Assembly (NCBI GenBank): GCA_009377525.1
Contig: WHTW01000018.1
Coordinates: forward strand, 1-64,000
Length of the DNA: 64,000 nt
Direction: 5' to 3'
DNA from: Rhodospirillales bacterium
GTDB taxonomy: Bacteria; Pseudomonadota; Alphaproteobacteria; Reyranellales; Reyranellaceae
This document shows, one piece after another, positions 11,965 to 62,206 of this stretch. Below the pieces are notes generated by a model, which did no database searches, had not been told where the DNA came from, and was given only the letters and a program-made list of their open reading frames with translations. Numbering within the stretch: the stretch's first letter is position 1; each line of letters starts with the position of its first letter. The position numbers were made by a program, and so were the translations under genes.

Positions 11965-11965
11965 T

Positions 11966-12053
11966 CTTCCGGACCGCGCGCTGGGTCGCGTCTGACGCGA
12001 CCTTCCCGCGCGCTCATGATCATGAGGCGCGCGAGACGCGCGTGGTCCGGAAG
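11966..12053. repeat. Nested palindromic element, site 1
   Basis: Outer arms CTTCCGGACCGCG (from 11966) and its complement ending at 12053 enclose two further hairpins: GTCGCGTC/GACGCGAC, and a GCGCG stem whose tip is CTCATGATCATGAG. A partial AGCATGAGC flank follows. It lies between the convergent M16 peptidase and the beta-hydroxylase-like gene. Same family as 47015-47145, 52433-52550 and 57867-57926. Confidence 0.8.
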
Positions 12054-12068
12054 AGCATGAGCCCCCGA

Positions 12069-13692: not shown

Positions 13693-13814
13693 AGCGGATC
13701 CCGATCAGATGGAACCGCTCGCGGTTCCATCTGATCGGGATCGCGCGCCCGGGAGTTGCTGATTTCACAGGGCATATTCCGTTCGGCTGCTTCCAGCCGA
13801 ACGGAATATGCTTT
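13691..13814. repeat. Two-hairpin 124-base element, copy 1
   Basis: First hairpin: perfect 22-base arms 13697-13718 and 13721-13742 with a 2-base loop. Second hairpin: perfect 18-base arms 13772-13789 and 13794-13811 with a 4-base loop. The element begins AGAGCG. It matches 62083-62206 in length and in the position of every arm. It begins at the stop codon of the acetyltransferase gene and ends 27 bases before the dioxygenase start. Confidence 0.9.
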
Positions 13815-47010: not shown

Positions 47011-47014
47011 GGGC

Positions 47015-47145
47015 GCGCGGGCCTCCGGCCCGCTCATGATCTTCCGGACCGCGAGCCTCCTACGCCGAATCGGCCAGAGGCCGATTCGGCGTAGGAGGCT
47101 CGCGGTCCAGAAGACGAAGAGTATGAGCGGGCCCGAGGCCCGCGC
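47015..47145. repeat. Nested palindromic element, site 2
   Basis: Outer arms 47015-47037 and 47123-47145 pair at 22 of 23 positions and end in CTCAT/ATGAG. Between them lies an inner hairpin with 35-base arms (47041-47075 and 47079-47113, one mismatch) and only a 3-base loop AGA. The inner arms begin CTTCCGGACCGCG as at 11966 and 52465. It lies between the convergent ligA and OmpA-like genes. Confidence 0.9.
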
Positions 47146-47151
47146 TCCAAG

Positions 47152-47177
47152 AAAAACGGCCGGGCAATGCCCGGCCG
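47152..47177 (-). terminator. Rho-independent terminator of the OmpA-like gene
   Basis: On the minus strand a perfect 9-base stem CGGCCGGGC/GCCCGGCCG with a 3-base loop is followed by five T. It starts 25 bases after the stop codon of the OmpA-like gene. Confidence 0.9.
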
Positions 47178-47201
47178 CTCCTGCTCCGAAATCCCGATCG
47201 T

Positions 47202-48146
47202 CTACTGGATGACGATCTCGACGCGGCGGTTCTGCGGTTCGCGCACGCCGTCGGCGGTCTGGACCAGGAGGCCCGCCTCGCCGCGGCCGATCACCGTGAT
47301 CGCCTGCGCCGGCACGCCCTCGCGCACCAGGGCATCCTTGACCGCGTTGGCGCGACGCAGCGACAGCGCCATGTTGTAGGCCTCCGGGCCCGACGTGTCG
47401 GTGTGGCCGGTCGCCGTGATGCGGGCATTGCCCTTGGTCTTGAACGCAGCCGCGGCCTGCTTGATCGTGGCCAGCGCCTGCTGGCTCAGGTTCGAGCGGT
47501 CCCAGTCGAAGAACACCATGAACGACGGCGGCGCAACCGCCGGCGGCGGCGGGGGCGGCGGCGGCGGAGCCGAGCCGAACTTGACCTGCACGGCGGCGAG
47601 CAGGGCGACGTTGTTGTTGGTCCACGACGTCCCGGCGACCGTCGGGTTGGTGGTGCCGATATAGCGGCCTTCGAGATTGAAGCGCAGGTTCGGCGTGGCG
47701 TTGTAGCCCACACCCAGGATGCCTTGATAGGCGAAGGTCGTGCTGCCGAGGTTGTAATCGGAATCGATGAAGCCGACGCCGGCGCCCGCGCCGATATAAG
47801 GCACGAAGGTGCCCGTGGCGTTGAAGTCGTAAAGGAAGTTGGCCATCGCCGTCACCTGGCTGATCTGTCCGGTGATCGCGCGGCCGCCAAAGAAGTTGCC
47901 GTTGTTGTTCTGGCGATAGAGGCCTTCGACTTCGATGCGCGGGCCGATGAAGTCGTAGCCGAACTTGCCGCCGAGTGCCCAGCCCGTCTGAGGAGAGACG
48001 TTCTGGCCGAGGATGGTGGTGTTGAACAGCCAGTTCAGGCCGCCTTGGACGCCGAAGTACACGCCGGGCGCTTGGACATCTTGAGCTTGAGCGGTAGACG
48101 CTGGCAGTGCCGCGATGGCTGCCGCCGCAATCAAGACCTTCTTCAT
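47202..48146 (-). CDS. Outer membrane beta-barrel protein with OmpA-type peptidoglycan-binding domain
   Basis: Predicted outer membrane protein that links the envelope to peptidoglycan, 314 residues. A signal peptide opens MKKVLIAAAAIAALPAS and is cleaved near residue 21. Residues about 25-195 form an eight-strand-type barrel (GVYFGVQGGLNWLF, RIEVEGLYRQN, VPYIGAGAGVGFID). A run of nine prolines then leads to an OmpA C-terminal domain with TATGHTDTSGPEAYNMALS and NRRVEIVIQ. The ATG at 48146 has an AGGAGA ribosome site; the frame is open to 48203 but without a signal sequence. A terminator follows at 47152. Confidence 0.93.
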   Translation of the reverse strand: MKKVLIAAAAIAALPASTAQAQDVQAPGVYFGVQGGLNWLFNTTILGQNVSPQTGWALGGKFGYDFIGPRIEVEGLYRQNNNGNFFGGRAITGQISQVTAMANFLYDFNATGTFVPYIGAGAGVGFIDSDYNLGSTTFAYQGILGVGYNATPNLRFNLEGRYIGTTNPTVAGTSWTNNNVALLAAVQVKFGSAPPPPPPPPPAVAPPSFMVFFDWDRSNLSQQALATIKQAAAAFKTKGNARITATGHTDTSGPEAYNMALSLRRANAVKDALVREGVPAQAITVIGRGEAGLLVQTADGVREPQNRRVEIVIQ

Positions 48147-48703
48147 GCGTATCTCCTGGTGGAAGACTTCAGAGAGGTTTGCTTCGCGTTGGGGCTGAGG
48201 CAATTGCGTAGCGGGCGGAGTCTACGCGCCGCAAATTTCGGTCGCCACCAAATGGCGCCTGCATCGACGCATTCCTGCCTCGGTGTGGTCTCGTGGTAAC
48301 AGTCGCTGTGGCCATCCTGTGACCGCGGCAAGTCGCTGGGCTTCCTTCATCGGGACATCAGAAATTTTCCGCTTCGCGCGCTGTCTTCGTCATCAATTGA
48401 GATCTTCGATGCGCAGCGTACGCTTTCAGACTGATCAACTGTACCGCACCAACAGTGAAGCCTCCTGGGTCGTGGCCGGTTTCCTCATCGACGAGAAGGA
48501 ATCTCGACTGCCCCGCATGCAGGCATGGTGAACAACCGAACCGAGCACGACCACTTTGTTCCGGAGTGATACTCGGGCCTGCATATTGGATTGAATAGAC
48601 GTCATAATATACACGCCGAACATGTTCGACGTTCGCTTGCCGATGGCTTCCTCGAAGCCCCTCGGAATGCTAGAGGCTGCACCGCCTTACTGGAGTTGAT
48701 CGA
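48147..48703. other. Intergenic region, no gene recognised
   Basis: Divergent intergenic space between the OmpA-like gene and the desulfhydrase-like gene. Small open frames (for example 48283-48531) have no recognisable features. A 12-base perfect palindrome CGAACATGTTCG lies at 48617-48628, about 76 bases before the next gene and in a position suitable for an operator. No promoter pair can be named with confidence. Confidence 0.5.
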
Positions 48704-49738
48704 ATGGATTTGGCTCGTTTTCCGCGTCGCCGTTACACTCATGCCCCCACGCCAATCGAGCCACTTCCGCACTTCACCAAGGCCCTGGCGGCGAGCTGTC
48801 CGGGCGGCGTCGGCCCGGAGATCTGGATCAAGCGTGACGACCTGCTGGGCCTCTTCCCCGGCGGCAACAAGACCCGCAAGCTCGAGTTTCTCGCTGCGGA
48901 CGCGTTGGCCCAGGGCGCCGATACGCTGATCACCTGCGGCGCGCCGCAGTCCAACCATTGCCGCATCACCCTTTCGGCCGCGATCAAGGAAGGGCTGAAA
49001 TGCCGCTTCGTGATCGAGGAGCGCGTGCCCGGCAGCTACAAGAAGGAGGCCGGCGGCAACAACTTCATGTTCGAGCTGATGGGCGTCGAAGCCATCACCG
49101 TGGTCCCCGGCGGTTCGGACATGGGGGCCGCCATGTCCAAGGTCGCCCAGGAAGTCGCCTCGCTCGACCGCAAGGGCTACGTCATCCCGGGTGGCGGGTC
49201 GAACGCGATCGGCGGCCTGGGCTATGTCGCCTGCGTGCAGGAAATGCAGCAGCAGTGGTCGGACATGGGGCTGGTGCTCGATGCCGTCGTCGTCGGTTCG
49301 GGCAGCTCAGGCACCCATGGCGGCATGGTGGCGGGCTTCTTCGGCAACCACATCAAGATCCCGCTGATCGGCATCGGCGTCAGCCGCGATCCCGCCGACC
49401 AGGAGCCGCTGGTCCACAAGGAGGCGCAGGCAGTCGCCGACCTTTTAGGCATCGGCAAGGTGCCGCGCGAAGCGATCAAGAGCTTCGGCGGCTACTGGCA
49501 GCCGAAATACTCGGTGCCAAATGCCAAGATGGTGGAAGCCGTCCAGCTACTGGCGCGCACCGAAGGCATCCTGCTCGACCCGGTCTATACCGGAAAGATC
49601 ATGGCCGGCCTGATCGGCCTTGCGCGCCAGGGCCACTTCAAGCCCAATGCGAAGGTGCTGTTCATGCACACCGGCGGCCTGCCGTCGCTGCACGCCTATG
49701 AAGACGTCGTGCTTGGGCGGACTGTCCTGAAGGACTAG
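48704..49738 (+). CDS. D-cysteine desulfhydrase / L-cysteate sulfo-lyase family enzyme
   Basis: Predicted PLP enzyme of the D-cysteine desulfhydrase/ACC deaminase-like family, 344 residues. The PLP lysine is in FPGGNKTRKLEFLAADAL and the phosphate/substrate region in ITCGAPQSNHCRITLSAAI. The N terminus DLARFPRRRYTHAPTPIEPL is typical of both DcyD and the sulfo-lyase CuyA. The choice between D-cysteine and L-cysteate as substrate cannot be made by eye. It stands alone on its strand and its stop codon shares the tetranucleotide CTAG with the convergent aminopeptidase stop. Confidence 0.88.
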   Translation: MDLARFPRRRYTHAPTPIEPLPHFTKALAASCPGGVGPEIWIKRDDLLGLFPGGNKTRKLEFLAADALAQGADTLITCGAPQSNHCRITLSAAIKEGLKCRFVIEERVPGSYKKEAGGNNFMFELMGVEAITVVPGGSDMGAAMSKVAQEVASLDRKGYVIPGGGSNAIGGLGYVACVQEMQQQWSDMGLVLDAVVVGSGSSGTHGGMVAGFFGNHIKIPLIGIGVSRDPADQEPLVHKEAQAVADLLGIGKVPREAIKSFGGYWQPKYSVPNAKMVEAVQLLARTEGILLDPVYTGKIMAGLIGLARQGHFKPNAKVLFMHTGGLPSLHAYEDVVLGRTVLKD

Positions 49739-51744
49739 ATCGCGCGCGTCGCCTCGGCGAGCCAAGCCTTGGTCGCCTCGTCGACCTGCGGCGCCACTGT
49801 CTCGCGCACGCGCCGGTGATAGTCGTTCAGCCACAGCCGCTCGGCTTCGGTCAGCAGGCCGGATTCGACGCAGGCAAGGTCGATTGGCGCCAGGGTCAGG
49901 GTCTCGAATTCCAGATAGCGGCGGTCGGCGCCCTCGATCTTCGCTTCGCGCACCGCAACCAGGTTTTCTATGCGAATGCCGTAGGCGTCGGTCTTGTAGT
50001 AGCCGGGTTCGTTGCTGACGATCATGCCGGGCTGCAGGGCGACGTTGTTGGGCATCTTGGAGATGCGGTGCGGCCCCTCATGCACCGAGAGGTAGGCGCC
50101 GACGCCATGGCCGGTGCCGTGGTCGTAGTCGAGGCCGGCCTGCCACAGCGCATAGCGCGCCAGTGCGTCGAGCTGCGAGCCCGTCGTGCCGACCGGAAAG
50201 CGCGCCATGCCGAGCGCGATATGGCCCTTGAGCACGCGCGTGAAGCGGTCGCGCATCTCGGGGCTCGGCGTGCCGACGGCGACCGTGCGGGTGATGTCGG
50301 TCGTGCCGTCGCGGTACTGGCCGCCTGAATCCACCAGATAGAGGCTGCCCGGCTCGAGCGTGCGCTCGGTCGCCGCGGAGGCGTGATAGTGCACGATGGC
50401 ACCGTTGGGGCCGGCGCCGGAGATGGTGTCGAAGCTGAGATCGCGCAGCTTGCCGGTCTCCTGGCGCAGCGCCTGCAGGCGGTCCGACACTTCGATCTCG
50501 CGCAGCTTGCCGCCTTTCGATTCGCGCCCCAGCCAGCCCAGGAAGCGGCTGACGGCGGCGCCGTCGCGGCGATGGGCGTTGCGGATGCCTTCCATCTCGA
50601 TGGCGTTCTTGCAGGCCTTTGGCAGCGCCACCGGATCGGCGTCGGGCACCACCGTGACGCCCGCGCCCTGCAGGCGGTTGGCCGCCCAGATCGGCGCCGT
50701 CGCGGTCTCGATCAGGACCTTCTTGTTCACCTTGCCCAGCGTGTCGAGCGCTGAGCCGAGCTCGTCGGTCGGCGCCAGTGTCACGGCATTGCCCAGCCAG
50801 GCCAGCGTGCGGTCGGGCACCTTGCGGCGGTCCATGTAGAGGTCGACATGGCCGTCGCTGTGCAGCAGCGCGAAACCCAGCGCGAAGGGCGTGCGCGGCA
50901 CGTCGCCGCCGCGCACGTTGAGCAACCAGGCGATCGAATCGGGCTGGGTGATCAGTGCCACGTCGGCGCCCTTGGCCTTGACGGTGCCGGCGATGCGCGC
51001 GCGCTTGGCCGCGCTGCTCTCGCCCGCGAACTCGTCGGGGTGCGGCAGCACCGGCGCCAGCGGCGCCGGCGGGCGGTCGCGCCACACGGAGTCGACGGGA
51101 TTGGAATCGACCGGCACGAACTCAGCCCCGGCGCGTTGGCAGGCACGGGCGAAGCGGTCGTGGCCGTCGACGGTCGCCAGCCAGGGATCGAAGCCGAGCT
51201 TGCCGCCCTTGGGCAGGTTCTCGGCGATCCACGTCTCGGGCGATTGCTCGGGGATCTGGTGCGGCATGAAGGCATCGGTGTCGACCTGGGCGCGCACCGC
51301 CAGCGTATAGCGGCCGTCGATGAAGATCGCCGCGCGACCGGCCAGCACGATGGCAAGGCCGGCCGAGCCACGGAAGCCGGTGAGCCAGGCGAGCCGCTGC
51401 GAGTGCCGCGGCACGTATTCGCCCTGATGCTCGTCGGCGCGCGGCACCACGAAGCCGTCGAGGCCGCGTTGCCTGAGCTCGGCGCGCAGCGCGGCCAGAC
51501 GCGACACCGGCGCCGGCGCGGCGCCGAGCCCGTCATCGACCCGCGCCAGCTCCTCGCGCCAGGCCTTGAGTGCCCGGGTGAGCTCGCCATCTGCACTGGG
51601 ATCGACCAGTTCGACCCATTCCGGACCAGCCAGGCCCTCGGGGGCTGCGGCGACACCGCGCATCAGGGAATCGAGGGCCGAGGGGTCAAGGTTTCGGCCA
51701 CGCTGGCGAAGCAGGTGGAGGACGTCGTCTGGGGCGGAACTCAT
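49735..51744 (-). CDS. Aminopeptidase P family (M24B) protein
   Basis: Predicted cytoplasmic metallopeptidase that removes N-terminal residues before proline, 669 residues, the long three-domain form. Residues about 1-80 are an extra N-terminal segment, then two creatinase-like domains (residues about 85-380), then the pita-bread catalytic domain. Metal ligands are visible in LYLVDSGGQYRDGTTDITRT (two Asp), in GTGHGVGAYLSVHEGP (His) and in the final Glu pair NEPGYY and IRIENLVAV. The ATG at 51744 is the natural N terminus (MSSAPDD). Convergent with the desulfhydrase-like gene, sharing CTAG at the stops. Confidence 0.92.
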   Translation of the reverse strand: MSSAPDDVLHLLRQRGRNLDPSALDSLMRGVAAAPEGLAGPEWVELVDPSADGELTRALKAWREELARVDDGLGAAPAPVSRLAALRAELRQRGLDGFVVPRADEHQGEYVPRHSQRLAWLTGFRGSAGLAIVLAGRAAIFIDGRYTLAVRAQVDTDAFMPHQIPEQSPETWIAENLPKGGKLGFDPWLATVDGHDRFARACQRAGAEFVPVDSNPVDSVWRDRPPAPLAPVLPHPDEFAGESSAAKRARIAGTVKAKGADVALITQPDSIAWLLNVRGGDVPRTPFALGFALLHSDGHVDLYMDRRKVPDRTLAWLGNAVTLAPTDELGSALDTLGKVNKKVLIETATAPIWAANRLQGAGVTVVPDADPVALPKACKNAIEMEGIRNAHRRDGAAVSRFLGWLGRESKGGKLREIEVSDRLQALRQETGKLRDLSFDTISGAGPNGAIVHYHASAATERTLEPGSLYLVDSGGQYRDGTTDITRTVAVGTPSPEMRDRFTRVLKGHIALGMARFPVGTTGSQLDALARYALWQAGLDYDHGTGHGVGAYLSVHEGPHRISKMPNNVALQPGMIVSNEPGYYKTDAYGIRIENLVAVREAKIEGADRRYLEFETLTLAPIDLACVESGLLTEAERLWLNDYHRRVRETVAPQVDEATKAWLAEATRAI

Positions 51745-51865
51745 GTCGGCAGGACCCTACGCGGCAGGTCTGGAGGAGGCAATCTGAGCAATTTTCGTTC
51801 TCTCGCGAGTGCGAAATGCGCAATCAGAGAGCATCATGCAAGATATGCATATCAGTCGTTCCAAG

Positions 51866-51952
51866 CCTTCACTTATCGTTGTAACTCAAGGCTCTATATT
51901 TGCTCTGTGCGACGCAGCATGACGTACCGCGTCGCACAATAAGGAGCTAATC
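51866..51952 (+). promoter_or_regulatory. Leader of the DUF1127 gene with hairpin and possible heat-shock-type promoter
   Basis: A perfect 9-base inverted repeat GTGCGACGC (51907-51915) / GCGTCGCAC (51929-51937) lies just upstream of the AAGGAG ribosome site at 51941-51946. Further upstream, CTTATC and TCTATATTTG about 15 bases apart loosely resemble the alphaproteobacterial RpoH promoter pattern. The hairpin ends four bases before the ribosome site, so it could affect translation. Confidence 0.4.
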
Positions 51953-52360
51953 ATGATGACCCAGCCGATCCAGATGTTTGAAAATCTGACCAGCGAAACT
52001 TCGCCGGCGGGGGGAAACGACATCGCCAAGACGACCCTGTCCTTTGAGGACCGCCGGATGCTCGAGCTGCGTGCCCGCTACGCCCGCGCCGAGCTGGTGG
52101 CCAACGGCCTGGCAGACGCCCTGCTGTGGGTCGGCCGCCAATACAATCGCCTGGTCGCGGCGATCAAGACGGACTTCAAGCTGCGCGCCGCCGAGAGCCA
52201 GCTGTTCCGCATGAGCGACCGCGAGCTGGCCGACATCGGCCTGTGCCGCGGCGACATCCACTTCGCCATCCGCGAGACCGCGGAAGGCGTCATGCCGGAG
52301 ATCGATCACGTGACCCATACGGCCATGCCGGCAAACCAGAATTTGCGTTGCGTGGCGTAA
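51953..52360 (+). CDS. DUF1127 domain protein
   Basis: Small protein of 135 residues with a C-terminal DUF1127 (YjiS-like) motif: LFRMSDRELADIGLCRGDIH. This arginine-rich helix is found in many small alphaproteobacterial proteins linked to RNA turnover and to phosphate or stress responses, though the role here is unknown. The N-terminal 35 residues are low in features. The ATG at 51953 (or 51956) follows AAGGAG. A stable hairpin precedes it and a terminator follows at 52398, so it forms a single-gene transcript. Confidence 0.85.
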   Translation: MMTQPIQMFENLTSETSPAGGNDIAKTTLSFEDRRMLELRARYARAELVANGLADALLWVGRQYNRLVAAIKTDFKLRAAESQLFRMSDRELADIGLCRGDIHFAIRETAEGVMPEIDHVTHTAMPANQNLRCVA

Positions 52361-52397
52361 GCGACAGTAACGTTAGTAGCGTAGCGTAAGCGTACGA

Positions 52398-52422
52398 GGG
52401 CCGGCGAAAGCCGGCCCTTTTT
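52398..52422 (+). terminator. Rho-independent terminator of the DUF1127 gene
   Basis: Perfect 8-base stem GGGCCGGC/GCCGGCCC with a GAAA tetraloop followed by five T, 38 bases after the stop codon. Confidence 0.93.
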
Positions 52423-52432
52423 CTTGCCGGAA

Positions 52433-52550
52433 CGCGGGCCTCCAGGCCCGCTCATAGTCTTCGTCTTCCGGACCGCGCGCGTCTCGCGCGCTCATGAGGC
52501 GCGCGGGACGCGCGCGGTCCGGAAGAGCATGAGCGGACCCGGAGGTCCGC
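52433..52550. repeat. Nested palindromic element, site 3
   Basis: Outer arms 52433-52455 and 52529-52550 end in CTCAT/ATGAG. Inside is a hairpin with 19-base perfect arms (52465-52483 and 52507-52525) that continue through a single T-G mismatch into CGCGCGC/GCGCGCG, with tip CTCATGAG. The inner arms begin CTTCCGGACCGCG as at 11966 and 47041. It lies between the DUF1127 terminator and the convergent prmA gene. Confidence 0.9.
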
Positions 52551-52561
52551 TTCGGCAAGAG

Positions 52562-57840: not shown

Positions 57841-57866
57841 TCATGGGAGCGCCGAGCCCCTCATGC

Positions 57867-57926
57867 GGAGCGCGGACCTCCAGGTCCGCATCATGATTCA
57901 TGAGCGGACCTGGAGGTCCGCGCTCC
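57867..57926. repeat. Palindromic element, site 4 (outer module only)
   Basis: Perfect 23-base inverted arms at 57867-57889 and 57904-57926 around a 14-base loop containing TCATGATTCATGA. Each arm also holds an internal palindrome GCGGACCTCCAGGTCCGC. It corresponds to the outer module of the elements at 47015 and 52433, without an inner insertion. The FAD monooxygenase ATG at 57928 follows its right edge by one base. Confidence 0.92.
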
Positions 57927-57927
57927 G

Positions 57928-62082: not shown

Positions 62083-62206
62083 AGAGCGTTTCCCGATATG
62101 GTGGAACCGCGCGCGGTTCCACCATATCGGGAAAGCGCGCACGGGAGATCGTGGTTGCAACGGGCACATTCCGTTCGGCTGATTCCAGCCGAACGGAATG
62201 TGCTCT
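62083..62206. repeat. Two-hairpin 124-base element, copy 2
   Basis: Same geometry as 13691-13814: perfect 22-base arms at 62089-62110 and 62113-62134, and perfect 18-base arms at 62164-62181 and 62186-62203 around loop ATTC. It starts AGAGCG and ends TGCTCT. It lies between the divergent thioesterase and SDR genes. Confidence 0.9.

Follow-up and report, generated by a model that had tools for sequence, protein, structure and literature searches.

How do short palindromes come to lie inside one another, each seated at the tip of the one around it? The question is raised by four sites in a 64,000-nucleotide window, the whole stretch of DNA that was analysed (positions 1 to 64,000 of contig WHTW01000018.1), from a Reyranella-like genome of 7.35 Mb. 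A sequence-only reading of the window had described, at 52433-52550, an outer inverted repeat ending CTCAT / ATGAG with a second inverted repeat between its halves, and the site does read this way. It had also taken 57867 for the outer module alone, 47015-47145 for both modules combined with another core, and 11966 for the inner module with a third stem. On re-examination, 57867 proved to be a doublet of the outer family, B-type arms were confirmed at the second of these sites with a different core tip, and the third stem was located within the left hairpin. The features are as follows, with '.' where no strand is assigned:

52422..52561, strand., nested element A[B] (sequence, inverted repeats, REP scan, fold z -13.9)
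52422-52455 and 52529-52561, outer A arms and hairpins of A[B], with the inner B doublet inside the tip
52464..52526, strand., inner B doublet with arms TCTTCCGGACC, hairpin feet CTCAT/ATGAG and tip CTCATGAG
47012..47148, strand., A enclosing a B-type element with a long core; outer A halves at 47012-47037 and 47123-47148
47040..47114, strand., B-type arms and long core hairpin without a TCAT tip (sequence, inverted repeats)
57866..57927, strand., unfilled A doublet with ATCATGATTCATGA between the arms
11965..12054, strand., B doublet whose left hairpin carries an additional stem (GGGTCGCG...CGCGACC), with tip CTCATGATCATGAG

The outer repeat of the first element has its hairpins at 52434-52451 and 52533-52550 and ends in CTCAT / ATGAG, and the palindrome that it encloses (52464-52526) has arms of 28 nt that are 96% complementary. 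The core within 47012-47148 lacks the CTCATGAG tip and has GGCCAGAGGCC instead. The doublet at 57866-57927 has 24-nt arms that are 100% complementary, separated by the 14 nt ATCATGATTCATGA. Variants similar to the 11965 doublet occur at L047:6370 and L057:4368. When folded as single-stranded DNA, all four sites beat 200/200 shuffles (z -13.9, -15.6, -14.0 and -7.2).

The sites belong to three families, each built from a half that is present twice in inverted order, which places the foot CTCAT opposite the foot ATGAG at the tip of a full copy. The family A half, the 'outer' module, is [TCTTGCC]GG[GA]A[GC]CGCGG[AG]CC-TCC-AGG[TC]CCGC followed by CTCAT. The family B half, the 'inner' module, is TCTTCCGGACC with the hairpin GCGCGC/GCCGGC/GCGAGC and CTCAT, and the family C half is GCTGGG[AG]GCGCGCCACT-CC-AGTGGCGCG with TCAT. 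These are inverted doublets of short palindromes that fold to one hairpin, as REPINs are. A foot of GT[AG]G is typical, though not universal, of described REPs; here the foot is ATGA(G)/CTCAT. Copy number is as high as expected of REPIN/RAYT systems. The B arm TCTTCCGGACCGCG, with at most one mismatch, gave 549 matches in the genome against 19 for a reversed-pattern control, which rules out that the sites are unique and, together with the folds, that they are chance palindromes. The genome carries hundreds of short hairpin DNAs, and these are apparently mobile. As regards the extragenic position expected of REPIN/RAYT systems, for 63 paired B copies crude gene calls placed both flanks in non-coding DNA for 24 and both in coding DNA for 13. 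Five contigs of this genome (C10, C32, C34, C39 and C50) start within about 55 bases of a B arm, where the elements may break the assembly.

The genome yielded four PF01797 (Y1_Tnp) genes. All four RAYT-type genes lie between the CTCAT and the ATGAG of one palindrome:

L033 and L034, RAYT genes in B arms (L034 is broken)
L031 and L032, RAYT genes in A arms (flank reading)

At L031 an additional A half stands between the 3′ end of the RAYT gene and the closing half. Both proteins tested exceeded the cut-off of 80 for NCBIfam NF047646, 'REP-associated tyrosine transposase' (84.2 and 86.3), the best solved chain was TnpAREP 4er8 (E 7.5e-5), and the RAYT sequences contain the HUH and catalytic tyrosine motifs NH[VI]HVV and YVE[NQ]NPVKA. 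A C-terminal HTH extension, as in TIRtron/TIRYT proteins (subclass 2.1 of PMC6006769), was not found in these proteins, which are 181-189 aa long and in three of which Pfam finds Y1_Tnp alone.

Across the genus, 35/65 genomes gave a RAYT match and 30/65 gave none. In the flank analysis the loci were mostly bounded by matching A, B or C halves, and some had no clear flanking repeat (e.g. L084/L175 and L087/L179). TCAT and ATGA are the usual feet in the 28 genus rows listed; some rows differ (TCAA, TCAG or TTAT, for example). When arm family is mapped on a tree of 39 RAYT rows, two changes suffice, which is the minimum, against a shuffled mean of 18.2 (as low in 0/200); the A and C branches are well supported and the B branch is weak (50/67). 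Across the genus, each of the three arm families A, B and C goes with a transposase lineage of its own. A cognate RAYT flanked by the same repeats is the rule, with two exceptions. One genome (G024) has the most B arms (582) and two RAYT matches, one of the A lineage (65% identity) and one at 56% outside the tree; it may lack a B-lineage gene, or the gene may have fallen into an assembly gap. Another (G042) has 102 B arms and zero RAYT match. The assemblies are drafts, and genes between repeats can drop out. Several RAYTs of other phyla, each read at a single locus, have similarly built arms (GGGAGCGCGGGCGTCCCGCCCGC) and different feet.

Since RAYT genes sit in palindrome tips and arm types follow transposase lineages, the elements are REPIN-like and RAYT-associated and do not form a nameless class. 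The earlier suggestion that no named family behaves in this way was therefore not borne out, because they are REPIN/TIR-type doublets tied to RAYT transposases. REPINs are multi-copy inverted doublets of short palindromes, and every REPIN type has a RAYT of its own (Bertels & Rainey 2011, PMC3116915), and the Reyranella doublets are alike in copy number, inversion and a cognate RAYT for each type. In that account a REPIN cluster lies beside each RAYT, whereas here the gene is inside the doublet. The same paper remarks in one sentence that in some clusters a REPIN seems to have been inserted into, or beside, another; here the foot is ATGA(G), and tip insertion is regular and reciprocal among three families. 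TIRtrons/TIRYT share with our elements a RAYT-like gene within long, partly self-complementary inverted repeats that also form repeat families and dimers (Di Nocera et al. 2013, PMC3733652). That work also notes some REP dimers within other palindromes in A. variabilis and H. neapolitanus, and REPs as targets of insertion sequences. However, its motif GGGGWSAS, found in some TIRs, was not seen when the A, B and C arms at the listed Reyranella loci were inspected by eye, and the parts consulted describe no tip-directed nesting, target word or ortholog series. In the guide/target model of IS200/IS605, as outlined in PMC8266576, a foot tetranucleotide can pair with the target and insertion occurs beside a short word. 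Our elements resemble IS200/IS605 in the Y1 HUH enzyme, the hairpins near both ends, a foot complementary to the preferred word and, apparently, short-word insertion. They differ in being mostly non-autonomous doublets with feet that face inward to the tip, and their pairing and cleavage are predicted. BIMEs are mosaic palindrome clusters, and some insertion sequences target REP elements. In contrast to both, the intruder here is itself a RAYT-type palindrome that brings the target word along.

We consider it likely that the palindromes are non-autonomous REPIN-like doublets, that the related families A, B and C are each served by their own RAYT lineage, and that they nest via their TCAT tips. 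The RAYT would act as a Y1/HUH single-strand transposase of the IS200/IS605 kind, with catalysis by the proteins found here. The full element would be arm-hairpin-CTCAT-[RAYT gene]-ATGAG-hairpin-arm, and in the abundant short copies a few bases would replace the gene. The foot ATGA(G) would serve as guide by complementing the preferred landing word (C)TCAT, a relation proposed by analogy with IS200/IS605 and the TnpAREP model, and insertion would occur 3′ of TCAT. Upon extrusion of the palindrome as a single strand, the tip would become a loop. Since every tip carries TCAT and would be offered as a single-strand loop, it would be a favoured and harmless target and the elements would nest, each being a landing pad for the next that combines target specificity with a tolerated, perhaps single-stranded, loop. 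Later loss of the outer halves would leave the inner element at the old site.

The arrangement of the families in the genome agrees with insertion into tips. Clusters with halves of two families numbered 30 in 1.218 Mb, of which 9 were concentric, 16 partly nested and 5 two-token fragments; none was tandem and none crossing. The scoring was mechanical (the clusters at 52433 and L053:5496, each with one half unoriented, scored as partial but read as concentric), two of the partial clusters (Aab and Bba) are doubtful, and the sampled stretches were partly picked for B arms. Nesting is reciprocal, with B in A, B in C, A in C and A in B. The outer and inner roles proposed earlier are those seen for A at the window sites, but they are not fixed, as A also lies inside B and inside C. 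It had likewise been proposed to ask whether inner modules always start between CTCAT and ATGAG. This mostly holds at the junctions read, where the inner element begins after a foot TCAT (or TCTT, TCAA) and stops before ATGA or AGA, but some hairpin loops also gain stems. The core of the proposal, that palindromes insert into the tips of others, is upheld by the absence of tandem or crossing order in all 30 clusters, by the junctions after TCAT and by unfilled tips at orthologous sites, a check that the sequence-only reading had proposed.

TCATG lies exactly at -6 to -2 of 75/172 B arms, with no signal visible further out. TCAT within 9 nt upstream was present at 91/171 B arms (53%) compared with 13/684 control positions (1.9%), and was lacking there at the other 80/171. 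It was likewise found upstream of the A2 (22/68; control 6/272), A1 (4/19; 0/76) and C arms (3/21; 0/84). The hairpin foot ATGA is the exact complement of TCAT. The cleanest target, CTCAT|TCATTC, is empty on contig C111 of this genome and in G010, and filled directly after CTCAT in G024 and G040. On insertion directly 3′ of a fixed word, as in IS200/IS605, the evidence is mixed: TCAT is enriched and one empty site is clean, but some sites lack TCAT; at two filled sites (G000_C99:65282 compared with G051, and the L044 site) the empty relative shows none. Whether the flanking TCATG is part of the element or of the target, the empty sites point both ways. The two flanks of the 45 solo B copies behave independently (13 with both, 13.9 expected), which a one-sided target model does not predict.

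In a second explanation, the enzyme has no preference for the tip, and nests pile up only because an insertion into a palindrome does no harm, whereas one elsewhere is removed by selection. A B element lies beside an A or C half in 18/63 paired B copies. Per available target, there were 18 B elements per 50 A/C halves with a TCAT foot and 45 per 907 TCAT/ATGA sites in the 142 kb of DNA called intergenic outside elements, i.e. far fewer per intergenic site. The resulting odds ratio of 10.8 depends on a crude gene caller, and enzyme preference and mere tolerance cannot be told apart cleanly by it. Conversely, the same intergenic sites are filled in different species, as expected if permissive space is short. 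On this evidence we regard selection without enzyme preference as a serious though doubtful alternative to tip-directed insertion.

We compared 20 nested or tip-filled sites with G040, G024, G010, G038 and G051; some relatives were not recovered at every site and some from one side only. Unfilled and filled tips were found at the same loci. The C186:26138 site is C[A] in G051 and C[A[x]] in this genome. At L239:3146, A is unfilled in G040, A[B] in G010 and a single hairpin in G038; at L231:19075, A is unfilled in G040 and A[B] in G010; at L045:14606, A[B] is present in G040 and unfilled A in G038. The shared C left half at C44:25889 leads into B in this genome and into A in G040, whose contig stops short of the right half. 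In the remaining filled/unfilled pairs the A subtypes differ, and the elements may have been inserted separately. G051 has an empty site for L044:15199, and G038 has empty sites for L050:7996, L053:5496 and C186:26138. The window sites also vary. At 57866, this genome and G010 have A, G051 and G038 have C, G024 and G040 have B, and G052 has another palindrome; at 47012, G038 is nearly empty, G024 keeps a mosaic A/B/C remnant and G010 has another repeat.

Alternatively, nests could be made by recombination, template switching or gene conversion among similar palindromes. Consistent with this, mosaics are common: a B doublet often has two unlike hairpins, A/B hybrids and chimeric remnants are present, and much the same nested junction at L050:10125 is found with different cores and outer subtypes in G000 (this genome), G051 and G010, where the arms seem to change in concert. 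However, such exchange does not sit well with filled and unfilled tips within the same outer flanks, with the lack of tandem or crossing clusters or with the TCAT-directed filling of an empty site, and we consider it unlikely as the source of the nests. The mosaic hairpins and concerted arm change do suggest that conversion or template switching acts as well. That the elements are not mobile DNA but transcription terminators or regulatory hairpins which selection maintains at the ends of genes is highly improbable: the hairpins are strong and several adjoin gene ends, but orthologous sites in relatives are empty or hold other palindromes, a turnover that rules out conserved regulatory hairpins, and B-arm matches range from 1 to 582 among 65 genus genomes.

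Returning to tip-directed insertion, remnants suggest how outer layers may be lost. In G024, the B element at the L053 site has a leftover A arm (ATGAGCGCTCC) next to it, and the one at G040_C14:34302 lies within what look like leftover outer arms. Collapse to one hairpin occurs and is rare, with one A and one B by exact patterns in 1.218 Mb here and one C in 0.684 Mb of relatives; collapsed variants were also read at two A sites in G038. More tentatively, at somewhat less than even confidence, these observations could be joined into a self-similar ecology, in which three RAYT lineages share TCAT, shown in a single-stranded loop, and each insertion rebuilds a structure-presented target. The families would then colonise each other's loops and bring a transposase gene into them, and by nesting and outer-layer loss one family would replace another at the same intergenic sites.

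RAYTs, REPINs, TIRtrons and REP mosaics are already known. New, as far as searched, are the gene-in-tip layout with ATGA feet, the regular reciprocal tip nesting of three families and the series of filled and unfilled orthologs; we found no paper on nested REPINs in Reyranella in the open-licence literature. Target choice by REP/REPIN elements and their spread through bacterial genomes remain an open question, and close relatives within this genus supply numerous natural insertions, empty sites and tips both filled and unfilled, together with three transposase lineages. With this material, the idea of a guide-target relation and the part played by single-stranded hairpin loops can be tested directly, and nesting is a possible explanation for the mosaic palindrome clusters of such genomes.

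Further palindromes occur within such tips, namely a GGGGGAGAGG family, a CATCC[CT]GAGCG / CACCCTGAGGAGC family and a small GCGCATTCACATGCGC hairpin. At L066:14143-14323, L054:5343 and L239:3146 the tips hold the CCTCTCCCCC...GGGGGAGAGG family and the small GCGCATTCACATGCGC hairpin. Palindromes of the type CACCTCACCCTGAGGAGC / GTCATCC[CT]GAGCG, which are common in Alphaproteobacteria, are found at such sites and in C tips (G024_C171:57055, G010_C90:8346 and others). Extra small palindromes also lie inside hairpin loops and not in tips alone (GACGGAGTAAACTCCGTC and GGGTCGCGTCTGACGCGACC; L231:19075 compared with G038, and window 11965). A different compound repeat, made of two adjacent perfect palindromes (GATCAGATGGAACCGC... 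and ...ATTCCGTTCGGCTG), is present in the window at 13697-13811 and 62089-62203. It has 69 arm matches with at most two mismatches in 1.218 Mb, and a related pair occupies a B-element site in G040 (G000_C99:65282).
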